Shown: piece after piece, positions 5,115 to 29,373 of the stretch
Layout of the letters: the number at the start of each line of letters is the position of its first letter
How positions within the stretch are numbered: the first letter of the stretch is position 1
IMG/VR virus record: IMGVR_UViG_3300019093_000572
Location: 1-45,942 of that record
Reading direction: 5' to 3' (one strand)
From: a virus
Length of the DNA: 45,942 bases
Program-made: the position numbers and the translations under genes
Notes under the pieces: generated by a model
Databases searched by the model: none
What the model saw: only the letters and a program-made list of their open reading frames with translations
Told to the model about the DNA's origin: nothing

Positions 5115-7040
5115 ATGTACAAAGTAAGTTTCGTCAATCCAAACTTTCAGCAAGGCCCCATAGAATACAATTCTTACTATATTCCATACAGTATAGGGGT
5201 CATATGGGCCTACGTGCAGAAATTTGCACACTTGCGACATTTTGAATTAGACCGTATGATTTGGCGCAGAGAGCCAATCCAGGAAACTGCCCAACGTCTT
5301 GCACAAAGCAACATTGTAGGATTCAGTAACTATATCTGGAATGCCAATTACAACTACAAATTGGCACGAACAGTCAAGGCCATCAATCCCAACTGCCTGA
5401 TCATATTTGGTGGACCACAAGTGGAAGTGGCACGAGCAGATCTGTTTGAACGTCATCCTTACATGGATCTGGCCATCAAGCAAGAAGGTGAAAGAACATT
5501 CCGAAGAATACTGGAACAGTTTGAAACCCAGGATTTTGCGGCCATACCGGGTATGCTGATCAATCGTCAAGGGCAGGCTGTTGATACTGGCAAACCTGAA
5601 CGCATCGATGAACTGGATGAAATACCCAGCCCTTACCTAACAGGTGTGTTTGATCAACTGTTCGTAGACCATCCTGACGTAGAATGGAATGCCACCATTG
5701 AAAGCAATCGTGGTTGTCCTTATGCCTGTACCTTTTGTGATTGGGGCGGCCTGACCTACAGCAAGGTCAAGAAGTTTGAAATACAACGAGTGCTGGATGA
5801 ACTGGAATGGGTGGGTCAACATCGTTGTGGATGGATCACTCTATGTGATGCCAACTTTGGAATCTTTCCCGAACGTGATGAACTGATTGCCAACAAGCTG
5901 TTGGAGATACAACGCAAATACAATGCGCCCACACATTTTGTGATCACCTGGGCCAAGAATCAAAACAGAGAAGTTGTCAAGTTGGCCAAGAAGTTTGCTG
6001 AGAGTGATTCGGGATATGGCTTCACTCTCAGCTTTCAGAGCTTTGACGAGCAGACCCTGGTCAACATCAAACGCAAGAATCTTGTGAGCGAAAAGGCCTC
6101 TGAGATATTCAACTACTTCAACGAACACGGTGTCCCGGTCTACAGCGAACTGATCTTGGGCCTGCCTGGAGAAACACTACAGACCTGGAGAGAAAATTTC
6201 TGGACCTTGTTCAGATTAGGCAATCACAACAACATCACAATCTATCAGTGTCAGGTTCTAGAGAACACTGAGATGAATCATGTGCAAAGAGAAATCTACG
6301 ACATCAAAACTGTGAACGTGGAAGACTATTTCTTGAACAACACCATCGAAGCACACGATCCTGAAGTGCGAGAAGGCATAGACGTCATAGCCAGCACAGT
6401 AGATTTGCCAATGGACGACATGATAGAAGCACAGATCTTTACCTGGTTCATCAACACCTTCCATATTAATGGACTGACCGACACCATCAGTAGATTTTTA
6501 CAAAAATATCGGGCAGTTGATTATCGCGAGTTCTACGAAAAGTTTGAACAGTTTGTCAGCAAGGACCCTTGGTTCCAGACACAGCGACAAGAAATACACG
6601 ACTACTATTACCGCTGGTTCACTCCCGATCCCAACAATCAAAAGTTTGACAGTAGAACAGTGTTTGCCCTGTATCTCACAACCATAGACATACACAAGAA
6701 CGATCGTTATTCACACGTTTGGAATCTGATCAGGACTTTCTGTGAACAGGAGTTTGCGTTGGATCCTGTGTTGTTCCAAGACCTCATGCAGGTACAGGAA
6801 TACTCGGTAATCAACTACAATCGCTTGGATCAGTATCCAATGACCATCAAGACTCAACACAATATACTGGGTTATATCAATGCCGATCAGGCACTGAATC
6901 AACCACGAGAGTATCGTGTGCAATTCAACAAGAATCATCCCGAAGCTGAGTCTGTGAGCATAACCACTTTCTGTGAGAAGATCTGGTATGCTCGACGCAA
7001 GAACTATGGTAAAACTTCCTTGCATGAAATGTTGACCTAA
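5115..7040 (+). CDS. Radical SAM enzyme with B12-binding-like N-terminal domain
   Basis: 641 residues. The N-terminal 180 residues resemble a cobalamin-binding Rossmann fold (VSFVNPNFQQGP..., IVGFSNYIWN, IIFGGPQVE), followed by a radical SAM core with C201, C205 and C208 in RGCPYACTFCDWGG, which ligate a 4Fe-4S cluster that cleaves S-adenosylmethionine. Further core motifs include DANFG and ELILGLPGET. The C-terminal 200 residues are specific to this family. Whether B12 is bound is uncertain: no clear DxHxxG is visible. I recall homologues in cyanophages and pelagiphages, substrate unknown; methyl or sulfur transfer on nucleotide, peptide or lipid is possible. Stands alone after a terminator, with a poor Shine-Dalgarno. 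Confidence 0.85.
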   Translation: MYKVSFVNPNFQQGPIEYNSYYIPYSIGVIWAYVQKFAHLRHFELDRMIWRREPIQETAQRLAQSNIVGFSNYIWNANYNYKLARTVKAINPNCLIIFGGPQVEVARADLFERHPYMDLAIKQEGERTFRRILEQFETQDFAAIPGMLINRQGQAVDTGKPERIDELDEIPSPYLTGVFDQLFVDHPDVEWNATIESNRGCPYACTFCDWGGLTYSKVKKFEIQRVLDELEWVGQHRCGWITLCDANFGIFPERDELIANKLLEIQRKYNAPTHFVITWAKNQNREVVKLAKKFAESDSGYGFTLSFQSFDEQTLVNIKRKNLVSEKASEIFNYFNEHGVPVYSELILGLPGETLQTWRENFWTLFRLGNHNNITIYQCQVLENTEMNHVQREIYDIKTVNVEDYFLNNTIEAHDPEVREGIDVIASTVDLPMDDMIEAQIFTWFINTFHINGLTDTISRFLQKYRAVDYREFYEKFEQFVSKDPWFQTQRQEIHDYYYRWFTPDPNNQKFDSRTVFALYLTTIDIHKNDRYSHVWNLIRTFCEQEFALDPVLFQDLMQVQEYSVINYNRLDQYPMTIKTQHNILGYINADQALNQPREYRVQFNKNHPEAESVSITTFCEKIWYARRKNYGKTSLHEMLT

Positions 7041-8006: not shown

Positions 8007-8035
8007 TTGACAAGCTCTGCGTATAAATATATAAT
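8007..8035 (+). promoter_or_regulatory. Consensus sigma70 promoter
   Basis: TTGACA (8007-8012), 17-base spacer, TATAAT (8030-8035): a perfect match. It could also transcribe the tmRNA gene downstream. A TATAAATA (8022-8029), identical to the T4 late promoter box, overlaps the spacer. Confidence 0.88.
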
Positions 8036-8053: not shown

Positions 8054-8509
8054 ATGAGCACAGAATTTTTTCGCAAATACATGGATATTGTAGACGAAGC
8101 GGTACGTGGCGTACTGGTAAATCCAGGTGCTGGTCCAGGCTATCAGGATTATGCCATACGTCCAAACAGTCCGGAACAAAGAGATCAAGTGGCTCAGGGT
8201 CTAAAGACCGCTCGTGCTTACAATCGTGATGCTGCCAAGTATGCTGCGGCACCTGGCGAAAAGCAGGATGCCGATCCAGCTGAACTTGCAAGAAGAGCAA
8301 GAGGAGCCCAGAGTGGTTCAATTGTCCAACCAGGACCAAACAGTAGCGCCGAGCAAGACACTGGTATGCCAGTCAATATTCCAGGACACAATGAGCCTTG
8401 GCAGACCCGAGCTATTAATACTAAAACTTCAACTCTCGACGTTGGTAGTGATATTAAAGCAAATCAAGGCAAAGCAACCGGACCTAAAAAGCCAGTTAAG
8501 CCTTGGTAA
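8054..8509 (+). CDS. Pro/Ala-rich phage hypothetical protein
   Basis: 151 residues. It opens MSTEFFRKYMDIVDEA, a helical start that I recall from proteins of marine phages, and continues as a low-complexity chain rich in Pro, Gly, Ala and Gln with likely disorder; a basic PKKPVKPW end closes it. AGGAG lies 7 bases upstream. It is driven by the consensus promoter at 8007 and lies directly upstream of the tmRNA gene, so the two may share a transcript. Function unknown; disordered proteins of this kind are often virion-associated. Confidence 0.75.
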   Translation: MSTEFFRKYMDIVDEAVRGVLVNPGAGPGYQDYAIRPNSPEQRDQVAQGLKTARAYNRDAAKYAAAPGEKQDADPAELARRARGAQSGSIVQPGPNSSAEQDTGMPVNIPGHNEPWQTRAINTKTSTLDVGSDIKANQGKATGPKKPVKPW

Positions 8510-8510
8510 C

Positions 8511-8809
8511 AGTTATTGCTGTATGAAGCAAAGAGAACGGTGTTCTGGACGGGGGTGCGAATCCCCCCAGGTCCACCAAAAGAACTTTTGCATTAGCCAC
8601 ACCAGAAATGCAGTATGTGGGGGAATGTTAGTCAATAGTTCTTTTGATGGGCCTGCATAGTTTCGACAGGGCAACAAGTAACAGAGTGGACAGCACGGTA
8701 GGCGATGACCGTTAATCAAGCAAAAAAAGTAAATGCAAATGACTCACAATTTGCCTTAGCAGCCTAAACACTGCTTAGGGTAGTTATACCTCGTAACAGA
8801 AAATAACAG
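8511..8809 (+). ncRNA. ssrA: Circularly permuted two-piece tmRNA
   Basis: The order is reversed relative to normal tmRNA. First comes the acceptor piece: a T arm GGGGG-TGCGAAT-CCCCC (8551-8567), then CAGGTCC (8568-8574) and ACCA (8575-8578). A 70-base intervening segment (8579-8648) follows, then the coding piece starting GGGCCTG (8649-8655). GGGCCTG pairs with CAGGTCC in 7 pairs, the third being G-U, the alanyl-tRNA synthetase identity pair. The tag frame at 8720-8767 reads AKKVNANDSQFALAA and stop. Downstream GGTA/TACC and GTTA/TAAC (8779-8797) can form a pseudoknot. It rescues stalled ribosomes and tags proteins for proteolysis. 5' and 3' limits of the pieces are approximate; the upstream stop at 8509 bounds the acceptor piece. 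Confidence 0.92.
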
Positions 8810-8834
8810 ATAGGCTCTTCGGAGCCTATTCTTT
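8810..8834 (+). terminator. Intrinsic terminator of the tmRNA gene
   Basis: Stem ATAGGCTC/GAGCCTAT with a TTCG tetraloop, followed by TCTTT. It ends the tmRNA precursor. Confidence 0.88.
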
Positions 8835-11781: not shown

Positions 11782-11827
11782 ACAGTACGTGCCGAGCGCA
11801 CATTTCATTATCAATAAAGGAGAATAT

Positions 11828-12367
11828 ATGAAAACCGTTGGTGATAAATTAACAACATTCGCAGTCACTGGCGTGAAGCCAGGACAACCAGAAGATGCTT
11901 TCTTTGAAATTACAGATGAGGATTTTCCAGGCAAGTGGAAAGTGATTGTTTACTATCCAAAAGATTTCACATTTGTTTGCCCTACAGAGATTGTGGCCTA
12001 CGACAAGTTGACAGGTGACTTTGCTGACCGTGACGCAGTCCTGCTCACAGGTTCAACAGACAATGAGTTCTGTAAAGTCAGCTGGCAAACAGCTCACGCT
12101 GATTTGAAGAAGATTACACACAACCAATTTGCTGACACACAGCGTGGTGAGTTGAGCTTGATTGAACAGTTGGGCGTGTTCTATGCTCCAGCCGGAGCCG
12201 CACTTCGCGCTACATTCATTGTGGACCCAGACAATGTTATCCAACACGTTACTGTGAACAACTTGAACGTGGGTCGTAGCCCAGAAGAAACCCTGCGAGT
12301 TCTTGATGCGCTTCAAACTGGTGAACTGTGTGCCTGTAACCGTACCGTGGGCGGAGAGACTCTATGA
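11828..12367 (+). CDS. ahpC: Peroxiredoxin AhpC/Tsa family
   Basis: 179 residues. The peroxidatic cysteine is C51 in FTFVCPTEI; the resolving pair may be C168/C170 in GELCACNR near the C-terminus, where the usual CP-W form is altered. A conserved Arg lies in ALRATFIVD (about 127). The enzyme reduces H2O2, alkyl hydroperoxides and peroxynitrite, and needs a reductant. AAAGGAG precedes the ATG at 11828, which is preferred over an earlier frame opening without a ribosome site. It is the first gene behind a consensus promoter and is followed, after five genes of mixed type, by an AhpD-like protein that could be its reducing partner. Confidence 0.9.
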   Translation: MKTVGDKLTTFAVTGVKPGQPEDAFFEITDEDFPGKWKVIVYYPKDFTFVCPTEIVAYDKLTGDFADRDAVLLTGSTDNEFCKVSWQTAHADLKKITHNQFADTQRGELSLIEQLGVFYAPAGAALRATFIVDPDNVIQHVTVNNLNVGRSPEETLRVLDALQTGELCACNRTVGGETL

Positions 12368-25881: not shown

Positions 25882-26981
25882 TTCCTTTCTTTGGTATATC
25901 ACGACAGTACGCAACTCTCAGAGACGAACTGTTGGACATCACTGACCACGTGTATAAATCCGGTCAGGTGCTGGATGGCGAGTATACATTGAAATTTGAA
26001 AAGTCCATGGCCCGTAGATGCGATAGAGCACACGCTATTTCTGTTGGGTCCGGAACACAGGGTTTGATATTTGCTTTAGAACTTACCAAACCCTTGCCAT
26101 CAGCACCATCGGCAGTGTTGATTCCTGCCATAAGTTTTGCAGCCACACTGAATGCACCATTGCAGGCACAGCGTAGACCTGTCATATGTGATGTGGACTA
26201 TCAAGGATTATTGGATCTCAACTCACTAGGTAACACATTTGATGACATGGGTGTCAATACCCTAATGTATGTTAACCTGTATGGTAATTGTGTAGACTAT
26301 GATAGACTTCGACTACACACTGAATTTTTTAATGATAATCTATATGTGATTGAAGATGCCGCGCAGAGTTTCGGAGGCAGCTACAAAGGTATACCTTCAG
26401 GCAAAATGGGAGACATCAGTGTATTGAGTTTTGATCCTACAAAGAATTTAAACAACTACGGTTCTGGCGGAATGGTGTTGACTGACGATTTTGATTTTGC
26501 AGAAGCTGTTACCAATTTCAAAGACAATGGCAAGGCCAGTGTACATCAAACATCCGGAACCAACAGCAAAATGAGCGAAGCAGACTGTGCTCAGATGTTG
26601 GTCAAATTAAATTACTTCGATGCATGGCAACAACGCAGGGCCAAGATTGCTGACTACTACATTGAGACACTGTTTCCCTATGTTGATATTTTGTTGCCTG
26701 ATGCAGATGTAATACACTCTTGGCACAAGTTTGTCATAAGGGCAAAATCAAACCGCCATAGGCTGCAGACATTCCTATTAAACGAGGGTGTAGAAACCAA
26801 AATACACTATGCAGATCCCTTGTACGAACTTGAACTTGGATATGATTTTATTGACCGAACACGACTGTATATGGGTGCCGACTCATTGTCTCGTGAGTGT
26901 TTGAGTCTGCCAATCTATCCCGAACTAACTGACACAGAAGTGGAACATATTACCAAATCGGTCAAAAAGTTTTTTGAGTGA
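25863..26981 (+). CDS. DegT/DnrJ/EryC1/StrS-type aminotransferase
   Basis: 372 residues (TTG start at 25863 with METKNIIPFFGISRQY). PLP motifs: SVGSGTQGL (about 60-68), IEDAAQSFGGSYKG (about 163-176, the Asp and Gln contacting PLP) and SFDPTKNL (Lys about 194, the Schiff-base lysine). These enzymes transfer an amino group to a keto-sugar nucleotide. With the epimerase upstream it would form an amino-deoxysugar for glycosylation. The TTG start is supported by the overlap and the family N-terminus rather than by a strong ribosome site. Its end overlaps the convergent gene by 20 bases. Confidence 0.85.
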   Translation: METKNIIPFFGISRQYATLRDELLDITDHVYKSGQVLDGEYTLKFEKSMARRCDRAHAISVGSGTQGLIFALELTKPLPSAPSAVLIPAISFAATLNAPLQAQRRPVICDVDYQGLLDLNSLGNTFDDMGVNTLMYVNLYGNCVDYDRLRLHTEFFNDNLYVIEDAAQSFGGSYKGIPSGKMGDISVLSFDPTKNLNNYGSGGMVLTDDFDFAEAVTNFKDNGKASVHQTSGTNSKMSEADCAQMLVKLNYFDAWQQRRAKIADYYIETLFPYVDILLPDADVIHSWHKFVIRAKSNRHRLQTFLLNEGVETKIHYADPLYELELGYDFIDRTRLYMGADSLSRECLSLPIYPELTDTEVEHITKSVKKFFE

Positions 26982-29373
26982 AGCGTTCCTGTAACCAGGC
27001 CCATTCAAAACTCAACTGTAGTTTATCTAAGTCACCTGCAACTTCGTTGTAGTATTCAACTGCATCACGTGCGCCATCCAAACAATAATTGCTGTAGTTG
27101 CCTTGTGCCTGTGTCAACCAGACGTTGAGTCTATGCTCGGTTTCCACAGTGGGTTGTGTGTCCATGAACAGGCGCAGTTTTAAGGTTTCTCTAAATGCTG
27201 TGCGCCATGTGGTCCAGACATCCTGATTGAAATGTGCCACACCACTCAATAAGGGCACGGACTCGTGTGGTTGGCTCAAAGTAAAGTCAATGCCAGGACT
27301 GTTGTTTTCCAACACCAGGCGCCGATTATAAGCAATCATGCCCATATGACCGTACTCTAGGCCGTTTACCGGATTACGAGCATTGAATATGTAGTGTTTG
27401 GGTTCTTGGTAGTAATCTGGTTGCCATTCGAACCAAGGAAACTCTCCACCTGCCACTTCCAATTTGGCAAACACAGCAAAGAACCAAGGGGTGGTGCTGG
27501 CACGGGCCGCTGCCTGATATGCGGTCACACGTCCATTGACACCTCTGATCCATTTTGCTTCGGTGTTGCTTTGATAGCACAGGTGTTCGTACCAGCGTTC
27601 CTCGTCGGGTTCGCCGTTGCTGATGTACACTATATCTAGACTTTGCTCGCTTAAATGTCCACGTTCTTGGCGGTTTATGTAGGGGTAATCGTAGATTTGT
27701 GACTTCAAATGTGTCTTGATTTCGCGAGGCACTATCGATGTACTACCGCTACGTGTAATGGCCTCAACAGCACGGTCTTTTGCAGACCAAAGACACAATG
27801 GTTTGCCAACGTGTGTGATATCTGGATCATTGGTAAACACCACGTAAGGAAAATCAAATTGGTATTGTCTAACGGCATCAATCAGATTGTCGCTGTCGTA
27901 ATACACAACAGGAGAAGCGAATCGGTCTGGGTGTTGATCATCGCAGTAGTTGATCACATTGAACCAATCCAGTATTTCAAGCTCGTACATCTGTTGTCGA
28001 AACGACTCCACGTGTATGTAGAATGTGTCGCCACGTGGTTGGTTGTTGCTGGGAAACACATGTATCATGTGCTTTTGCCAAGGTTCAGGTTGCCAGGTAA
28101 AATCAAAACGGCCGTAGTCACAGATGCTGTTACATATCCAGACATATTCGGTGGTGGCTGTTGTCATGATACGTTTGAATGTGTCCAAGTAGTTGTCCAC
28201 AAATCTTGTGATTTTAATATTGGGGTAACGATGCAATAATCGTTCACGTGATTCTCTATCATTGTTGTTATGGTCAACATAGTAGATGTCGTGTAGATCA
28301 TCGGGTACATACACTGTTTGATTGTCCACAAAGTTTAAGTTAGGAAACTGTTCGATACCTTGGGCCCACACACGATGCCGATTGAATTCTGCCGTGTTGA
28401 TCAAGTAAGTATCAGACCATTTGTTCCACTGTGATCCAAACACGTGAGTCATATGTTGTTGCCAAGGTTCGGCGTGCCAATCAAAATCAAAATCATCGTA
28501 GATGTTTTCACTGGTAATGACCCAGAAGCGTGGACTACGTGCTCGAGTCACACAACGCTCAATGGTCTTCATCATGCTATTGGCATAACGTATGTTCTGT
28601 GCTGTGGGATACTTGGTTTCGATGGCCTGCCAACGTGCATCAGATTGAGCATTAGATTTGTTAACAAAGAATATGTCTAACACGCCCAGGAATGCTCGGA
28701 TATCGCCGATGAACTTGCGTTCAGTGGCACCCGGCACTTGATATTCCACTGTACCACTACGTTCACCGGTCCAGTGTTGATTACCAAACACATAGATGTA
28801 GGGTGGGTCGTGTGGATCTGGACACCAACTATAATCAAAGTCTACAGGCACATCTGACAGCGTGTGCCAGTGTTCGGTGGTGGGTGCCAGTTGTGCTTGT
28901 GGTTCATACATATACTTGCGCTCTGTGGCCCCGGGCACATGATATTCTACTGTGGGCATTTGTTCGGCTATGTACCACTGATTACCAAACACATAGATAT
29001 AGGGTGGGTCGTGTGGGTGCGGCTGCCAAGAGTAGTCAAATTTTTCAACAGCGTGTAGTGTCTGCCAATTCTGCATAGTTGGCACAGCAGTCACCAGTTG
29101 ATTGTGAAACTGCCATTGATGTTCAAGTACAGTATTCTTGTTTGCTAGATATGCGCCACCGTGCTGATTCCATTGTGTGGGCCACGTGTGTACGTGAGTG
29201 TCTTCCCACGGAGGAGGCACATAACCAAAATCAAAGTTGGTGTAATCATTGGCACTATAAATATACCAGTAGAGTCTAGTACGACTCAATTCAGCGGCAT
29301 GCTCCAAACTATCTGCAGGCTGTTCGTGTGCAAATCGATTAGGTTTCATTCCAGTATAAAAAACATCAAACAT
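26962..29373 (-). CDS. Large tandem-repeat protein with phage-conserved C-terminal domain
   Basis: 803 residues. At least six repeats of a motif near FDFxWxPxPWxxxMxHVF(x)NQWN occur at about residues 47-69, 112-133, 179-201, 295-317, 423-445 and 645-667; the second and third are closely alike and end in TVEYxVPGATERK. Each repeat is followed by a variable stretch with DIxFV or YVDHNN elements. The C-terminal domain (about 579-803: DIVYISNGEPDEERW..., WFFAVFAKLEVAG, GLEYGHMGMIAYNRR, TTWRTAFRETLKL, ERLNVWL-like) recalls a family of T4-like cyanophage proteins with a GT2-like look. A role in glycan or nucleotide handling is guessed. Starts on the minus strand in a CATG shared with the divergent gene. 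Confidence 0.75.
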   Translation of the reverse strand: MFDVFYTGMKPNRFAHEQPADSLEHAAELSRTRLYWYIYSANDYTNFDFGYVPPPWEDTHVHTWPTQWNQHGGAYLANKNTVLEHQWQFHNQLVTAVPTMQNWQTLHAVEKFDYSWQPHPHDPPYIYVFGNQWYIAEQMPTVEYHVPGATERKYMYEPQAQLAPTTEHWHTLSDVPVDFDYSWCPDPHDPPYIYVFGNQHWTGERSGTVEYQVPGATERKFIGDIRAFLGVLDIFFVNKSNAQSDARWQAIETKYPTAQNIRYANSMMKTIERCVTRARSPRFWVITSENIYDDFDFDWHAEPWQQHMTHVFGSQWNKWSDTYLINTAEFNRHRVWAQGIEQFPNLNFVDNQTVYVPDDLHDIYYVDHNNNDRESRERLLHRYPNIKITRFVDNYLDTFKRIMTTATTEYVWICNSICDYGRFDFTWQPEPWQKHMIHVFPSNNQPRGDTFYIHVESFRQQMYELEILDWFNVINYCDDQHPDRFASPVVYYDSDNLIDAVRQYQFDFPYVVFTNDPDITHVGKPLCLWSAKDRAVEAITRSGSTSIVPREIKTHLKSQIYDYPYINRQERGHLSEQSLDIVYISNGEPDEERWYEHLCYQSNTEAKWIRGVNGRVTAYQAAARASTTPWFFAVFAKLEVAGGEFPWFEWQPDYYQEPKHYIFNARNPVNGLEYGHMGMIAYNRRLVLENNSPGIDFTLSQPHESVPLLSGVAHFNQDVWTTWRTAFRETLKLRLFMDTQPTVETEHRLNVWLTQAQGNYSNYCLDGARDAVEYYNEVAGDLDKLQLSFEWAWLQERFTQKTF
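28714..28840 (-). repeat. Direct repeat A within the 803-residue protein gene
   Basis: About 126 bases that align with 28915-29040 with many shared runs (for example ATTACCAAACACATAGAT and AGGGTGGGTCGTGTGG); it encodes repeat 3 of the protein. Confidence 0.6.
28915..29040 (-). repeat. Direct repeat B within the 803-residue protein gene
   Basis: Second copy of the duplicated segment, encoding repeat 2; the two lie 200 bases apart on centre and indicate a recent intragenic duplication. Confidence 0.6.

Follow-up and report, generated by a model that had tools for sequence, protein, structure and literature searches.

A beta-type permuted tmRNA of a putative long-separated phage lineage, with predicted small protein genes in the intervening segment of its relatives

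Structure of the tmRNA gene

The window, namely the whole stretch of DNA analysed in this study, is a linear IMG/VR virus record 45,942 bases long. At 8511–8832, Rfam models, ARAGORN and reading of the sequence identified a complete tmRNA gene of the circularly permuted (two-piece, beta-type) form (Table 1). RF01850 (beta_tmRNA) matched 8465–8832 over its full length (model 1–331 of 331) with 143.3 bits against a cut-off of 84 (E = 5.6e-44); it was the top-scoring member of its clan at this locus, and several pairs were non-standard. RF04321 (tmRNA_permuted) matched 8517–8767, also over the complete model (1–213 of 213), with 133.8 bits against a cut-off of 47. ARAGORN separately called a permuted gene (tmRNA*) with the tag ANDSQFALAA. 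The match at 8511–8832 is far above chance. The original prediction, made from the letters alone, had proposed a permuted two-piece tmRNA; its halves, T arm, ACCA, GGGCCTG and 7-bp stem with a G-U third pair were recovered nearly to the base, and the RF01850 score lies well above the threshold below which that proposal would have been abandoned. The tag frame had been placed at 8720–8767, of which the frame and the stop were right and the start was wrong, the resume codon GCA lying 15 nt later at 8735.

All the features that characterise permuted tmRNA were found: the acceptor half comes first, the two acceptor strands form a 7-bp stem (7/7 pairs, including G3-U70) followed by CCA, and an alanine-resume tag ends at a stop codon. 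The third acceptor pair G3-U70 is the alanyl-tRNA-synthetase identity element, and the ALAA end of the tag is an ordinary proteolysis signal. The T-loop carries G at position 55, where U55 is near-universal in tRNA-like T-loops, and the folding, modification or charging of the window tmRNA could differ in consequence. The fold of 8511–8700 had a z-score of −2.76, and the ends of the intervening segment pair with each other. A concealed reading frame in this segment was considered and rejected, as no ORF within the 70 nt reaches 15 aa. The T-loop is uninterrupted and no intron family occurred among the Rfam matches of the window, which gave no sign of a group I intron; no glutamine riboswitch of the kind found in phage Melnitz scored over the Rfam cut-off within the window.

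Table 1 Positions of the tmRNA gene, its parts and its neighbours in the window
Feature	Position	Strand	Remarks
Promoter-like site, TTGACA-17-TATAAT	8007–8035	+	Sigma-70-like, 12/12; consensus match only
Upstream gene, 151 aa	8054–8509	+	Ends 1–2 bases before the tRNA-like half
Acceptor (tRNA-like) half	8511–8578	+	5' end approximate; sequence, ARAGORN, Rfam
T arm, GGGGG TGCGAAT CCCCC	8551–8567	+	Acceptor half
T-loop, TGCGAAT	8556–8562	+	Acceptor half; G at position 55 in place of U55
Acceptor 3' strand, CAGGTCC	8568–8574	+	Acceptor half
Encoded ACCA	8575–8578	+	End of acceptor half
Intervening segment, 70 nt	8579–8648	+	Outside the predicted mature RNA; arms 8579–8586 and 8637–8644 pair
Coding (mRNA-like) half with tag region	8649–8832	+	3' end approximate; reads GGGCCTG and GTTTCGACAGGG; sequence, Rfam
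Acceptor 5' strand, GGGCCTG	8649–8655	+	Coding half
Tag frame, ANDSQFALAA	8735–8764; TAA 8765–8767	+	Resume codon GCA at 8735; ARAGORN
3' hairpin	8810–8829	+	Coding half
Downstream gene, 180 aa	8938–9480	+	Product with signal peptide; outer-membrane beta-barrel of ten strands predicted

Phage origin and gene neighbourhood

PHROG matches in the window comprised an ATPase (phrog_1297), an HNH protein (phrog_1314), an exonuclease (phrog_107), a virion structural protein, a Nol-like carbamoyltransferase, thymidylate synthase, dCMP deaminase, dihydrofolate reductase, QueD and QueE. The best matches of two well-conserved window genes were jumbo myophages (the PA5oct group, Sinorhizobium phage Phosso and Agrobacterium phage Atu_ph07), and the same gene set recurs with tmRNA in other large viral contigs of up to 346,856 bases. 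The many auxiliary metabolic genes (radical SAM, peroxiredoxin, QueD and QueE) would suit a bacterial chromosome fragment wrongly filed as viral, the finding that the original prediction had named as fatal to it. Given the virus record, the phage-specific families throughout the window, the jumbo-myophage matches and the recurrence in large viral contigs, this contamination was ruled out as exceedingly improbable, and the virus origin was upheld. The window also encodes a B12-binding radical SAM protein (5115–7040), an AhpC/TSA peroxiredoxin (11789–12367) and an internally repetitive 803-aa protein without a family match (26962–29373).

The promoter-like site is a candidate promoter of a unit formed by the upstream gene and the tmRNA, with three sigma-70-like sites in the region against 1.8 expected by shuffling. 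A homologue of the upstream product (64% identical) adjoins the permuted tmRNA in locus L118. The barrel protein was modelled by AlphaFold with a mean pLDDT of 83.8, and its fold matched TMB10_163, NspA and FapF in the PDB. Of 72 viral loci, 37 have the tmRNA or its coding-half core no more than 900 nt upstream of the barrel gene, so that this neighbourhood is conserved; Melnitz likewise has a pore gene (csgG) close to its tmRNA (PMC9004378). Neither smpB nor an integrase was recognised among the scanned genes of the window, which is a genome fragment, and host SmpB would therefore have to accept the window tmRNA.

Separation from bacterial tmRNA genes

Kin of the window were located by pattern scans and protein scans. 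A T-arm pattern scan of IMG/VR returned at least 119 stretches, and 115 of 120 were permuted when the window was included; the same pattern run on bacterial genomes provided a like-for-like set of 97 permuted genes among the matches listed. Among these listed matches, which on the bacterial side are heavy in Rhodocyclaceae and may leave the true host lineage outside, the acceptor sequence GGGCCUG occurred in 66/115 viral and 0/97 bacterial permuted genes, the G55 T-loop in 63/115 and 0/97, and the tag ANDSQFALAA in 17/108 and 0/88 genes, respectively, and the intervening segment spanned 25–382 nt (mostly 54–150) in viruses versus 3–42 nt in bacteria. The tRNA-like half was almost invariant across relatives, and the intervening segment was free to vary.

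A tree of mature tmRNA sequences was constructed with 210 tips (126 viral and 84 bacterial). Virus and bacterium labels changed only 3 times on this tree, compared with 54–75 times (mean 66) after shuffling, and the window tmRNA lay at a distance of 0.14 from the nearest virus and 1.68 from the nearest bacterial tip. It grouped with viral genes and not with betaproteobacterial ones; thus, the beta architecture appears to be shared and the phage lineage separate. The betaproteobacterial permuted tmRNA (RF01850, merged into RF04321) has the same gene order, G3-U70 stem, CCA, T arm, ANDxxFALAA tag frame and 3' hairpin, whereas GGGCCUG, the G55 T-loop, the 70-nt segment and its own tree branch set the window apart.

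Genes for tmRNA are common integration sites, and the window copy might accordingly be a passenger, that is, host DNA recently picked up, for example when a prophage integrated at the host tmRNA was excised imprecisely, with no role in infection. The authors of the Melnitz study propose a prophage-excision origin for its copy (PMC9004378). For the window, such an origin is very unlikely, and recent capture from a host was set aside as unsupported: viral copies form their own lineage on the tree, no near copy was found in 300 Burkholderiales genomes and no G55 T-loop in 200, the position beside the barrel gene is kept in 37 of the 72 relatives, and the scanned window genes yielded no integrase. 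A plasmid search gave no match either. The window tmRNA therefore reads as a probable member of a long-separated phage lineage and not as a recent copy from a host.

Protein genes in the intervening segment of relatives

Several viral tmRNA genes missed by ARAGORN hold a protein gene (cargo) between the two halves, and ARAGORN loses the tmRNA once a long gene fills this slot. The typical join reads CCACCA-TAAGGAAGTTTG-ATG ... TTTCTTTA-TGA-T-GGGCCTG, with a Shine-Dalgarno sequence directly after CCA and a stop codon ending one base ahead of the coding half. A segment was classed as occupied when it had a Shine-Dalgarno sequence, a start within 26 nt and an ORF of at least 20 aa covering at least 60% of its length; such loci include L308, L316, L118, L404, L013, L034, L326, L007, L041, L356, L424 and L403. 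The final catalogue comprised 167 unique segments, 68 of which were occupied, a fraction biased upward because part of the sample was chosen for Shine-Dalgarno plus ATG. The cargo stop lay exactly at −1 in 35 and inside the last 13 nt in 51 of these 68 segments. A scan blind to the segment found 19 of 98 unique segments occupied (among the matches listed), versus 1.2 expected by shuffles (maximum 5 in 300 runs) and 4.0 (maximum 10) with the start region held fixed. The Rfam permuted model spans the cargo as one full-length gene in L308 (28–539), L316 (3144–3780), L034 (9677–10141), L326 and L013.

Pfam identified the cargo as thioredoxin in L308 (75.4 bits, cut-off 23.5), a staphylococcal-nuclease homologue in L316 (47.6 bits, cut-off 21) and a CxxCxxCC protein in L034 (26.6 bits, cut-off 23). 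The cargo of L118 looked like GNAT by eye, and this assignment was dropped as Pfam gave it no support. Among the 44 cargoes no longer than 45 aa, 30 had a strongly hydrophobic stretch, and many cargoes are predicted to be one-span membrane peptides. The dN/dS ratios were 0.06 for L013/L034, 0.05 for L356/L424, 0.14 for L118/L404 and 0.11 for L260/L288, with weaker values (0.23–0.58) in short cargo pairs with few changes. Purifying selection in the better-resolved pairs thus supports the predicted coding and translation of the cargo. The pair L259/L291 was discarded as coding evidence, with 5/55 identical residues in an unaligned comparison. In another tmRNA-like gene (L290), the segment of about 482 nt after CCA encodes an HNH-like protein (Pfam 20.9, just below the cut-off of 21.4); cargo could thus enter, among other routes, by way of homing endonucleases.

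The flanks of the window segment are 92–93% identical to those of L118, 90–91% to those of L034 and 91–93% to those of L041, and the occupied segments of these relatives measure 382, 284 and 183 nt, compared with 70 nt in the window. Near the barrel gene, the slot is occupied in L356, L424, L349, L370, L403 and L404 and empty in the window, L358, L362, L364 and others. Cargo presence required 30 changes on the tree versus 31–45 when shuffled among viruses, a scatter which, with sampling bias applying, fits fast turnover. A tblastn search with three cargo proteins against an isolate-phage collection returned nothing, so that in this study all clear cases of occupancy come from metagenomic viral contigs. 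No earlier report of cargo genes in phage permuted tmRNA was found in the open-licence literature. The window itself, which has no cargo under the above definition, appears to be an empty-slot member of this phage-specific variant.

The segment is also closed by a stem. Pairing of the 16 nt that open a segment with the 22 nt that end it ranked the own partner far ahead of partners from other loci, the mean rank being 0.07 in empty slots and 0.16 in filled ones (chance, 0.5). In filled slots, the same bases double as Shine-Dalgarno sequence, C-terminal codons and stem. The 5' strand of the stem thus includes the ribosome-binding site of the cargo, and the 3' strand includes the final cargo codons and the stop; hence, we hypothesise a possible coupling between the maturation of the tmRNA and the translation of the cargo. 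On balance, we favour a dual-purpose phage permuted tmRNA, in which the excised segment would serve as a slot for small-gene cargo and one precursor would give both a rescue RNA and an mRNA, with maturation and translation possibly coupled. The slot architecture is evident in the sequences of the relatives. A plainer reading is that phages use whatever spacer is transcribed to house small genes, the gaps between tRNA genes being one such case; the shared stem and stop position hint, short of proof, at more than gene packing.

Putative function of the window tmRNA

We consider it quite probable that the window encodes a phage beta-type permuted tmRNA that most likely works in rescuing ribosomes and belongs to a phage lineage whose slot is empty here. 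We infer its expression and subsequent steps as follows. In the folded single transcript, the two halves would form the acceptor stem, beyond which the 70-nt segment would pair at its ends. Host tRNA-processing enzymes would remove the segment and release two pieces, the acceptor piece of about 68 nt with a terminal CCA and the coding piece of about 180 nt. The acceptor would be charged with alanine through G3-U70. Together with host SmpB and EF-Tu, the charged RNA would free ribosomes on broken mRNA and add ANDSQFALAA as a normal degradation tag. For the phage, the gain would most likely be that ribosomes continue to be recycled during the destruction of host transcripts. In the phage lineage, the intervening segment would double as a small-protein-gene slot, which is empty in the window.

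The RNA might instead act as a decoy or inhibitor that takes up SmpB or competes with host tmRNA and performs no rescue. This role was suggested for the tRNA-like-only form of mycobacteriophage DS6A, a precedent in which a similar short RNA strongly inhibits tmRNA (PMC4131195, PMC11915505), and the unusual G55 of the window T-loop would be in line with it. A decoy would need neither a tag frame nor G3-U70, and the window copy, unlike DS6A, retains both. Among 139 unique viral genes tested after the middle of long segments had been removed in silico, ARAGORN recognised a tag frame in 125 (45/53 with cargo and 80/86 without). Their retention counts against the decoy, which is improbable beside ribosome rescue.

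The suggestion in the original prediction that the window copy redirects tagging found no support, the tag ending in the ordinary ALAA. Targeted proteolysis, in which the main use would be to tag proteins and thereby recover their amino acids for virion synthesis, and not to free ribosomes, has been proposed for Melnitz (PMC9004378) and agrees with the ALAA end of the window tag and of 87/108 viral tags (among the matches listed). Sequence cannot separate this role from plain rescue, and the RMVA, LMAA and LAV ends of some relatives misfit one shared aim of stronger degradation; as the main use, it seems highly unlikely. Long predicted tags (24–32 aa, e.g. ANADTFDFSAMSFTGNTVRGAANESRFALAA) or non-LAA ends (LAV, AFA) were observed in L308, L266, L287, L279, L296, L255, L104 and L054, according to ARAGORN predictions made partly on sequences with a shortened segment.

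Relation to known phage tmRNAs

Permuted tmRNA was believed in the original prediction to be new to phages, which was wrong: the Methylophilales phage Melnitz, a myophage, has a two-piece tmRNA, two-piece forms accounted for 53 of 133 unique tmRNA structures of isolate phages in a study published in 2022 (PMC9004378), and at least 115 permuted viral genes, including that of the window, are present in our set. A 2025 tmRNA database holds 79 bacteriophage tmRNAs (PMC11915505). The two-piece tmRNAs of Melnitz and marine phages are complete permuted tmRNAs like that of the window, and both Melnitz and the window are of myophage type; however, the Melnitz gene is alphaproteobacterial-type and linked to a glutamine riboswitch, whereas the window gene is beta-type, without a riboswitch match and in another neighbourhood. 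No report of a protein gene between the halves was found in that study (PMC9004378). The one-piece tmRNAs of Bxz1-type mycobacteriophages and Bacillus phage G are phage-carried but of normal gene order, and the tRNA-like-only RNA of DS6A is phage-carried but lacks a tag frame (PMC4131195). A group I intron tmRNA with a homing endonuclease gene (PMC11915505) also holds a protein gene within a tmRNA gene, as do the cargo-bearing relatives; that gene sits within the T-loop region, inside a self-splicing intron, whereas the cargo sits in the permuted-gene spacer with no intron.

Unannotated permuted tmRNA genes were also found in isolate phages, namely, Xanthomonas phage Rb1 (PQ569993; L241, 2472–2900) and Stenotrophomonas phage vB_Sm_QDWS359 (ON331942; L242, 2472–2889), and in the latter a hypothetical gene is annotated across it on the opposite strand. 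Both resemble the window in having a permuted tmRNA with a long intervening segment, and QDWS359 also has the acceptor GGGCCTG; they differ in their U55 T-loop, tags (ANDDNFRPALRLAA and ANDSVYAQAIAA), GC-rich genomes, other phage families and Xanthomonadales hosts. Xanthomonadales hosts should have one-piece tmRNA. In the cyanophage isolate Synechococcus phage BUCT-ZZ01 (ON615601; L338, 1289–1707), a permuted tmRNA that lacks annotation exceeds the beta-model cut-off and has the tag ANDETFSMALAA; ARAGORN also gives a tRNA with a CTA anticodon at 167–242 of this locus.

Conclusions

Permuted tmRNA in phages was already known; what appears to be new, judged by the open-licence literature, is a phage-specific kind with a cargo slot. 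Permuted tmRNA thus appears to be more than a bacterial gene now and then acquired by phages, as viruses own a long-separated lineage that is frequent among environmental phages and has escaped annotation even in certain isolates. Annotation tools, including ARAGORN, overlook slot-filled tmRNA genes. What is a discarded short spacer in bacteria is, in many of these phages, a long segment with conserved protein genes. The cargo slot makes it testable whether a two-piece tmRNA precursor also serves as an mRNA, and it opens the questions of why phages would need their own ribosome rescue and what role the tiny membrane peptides in the slot may have.
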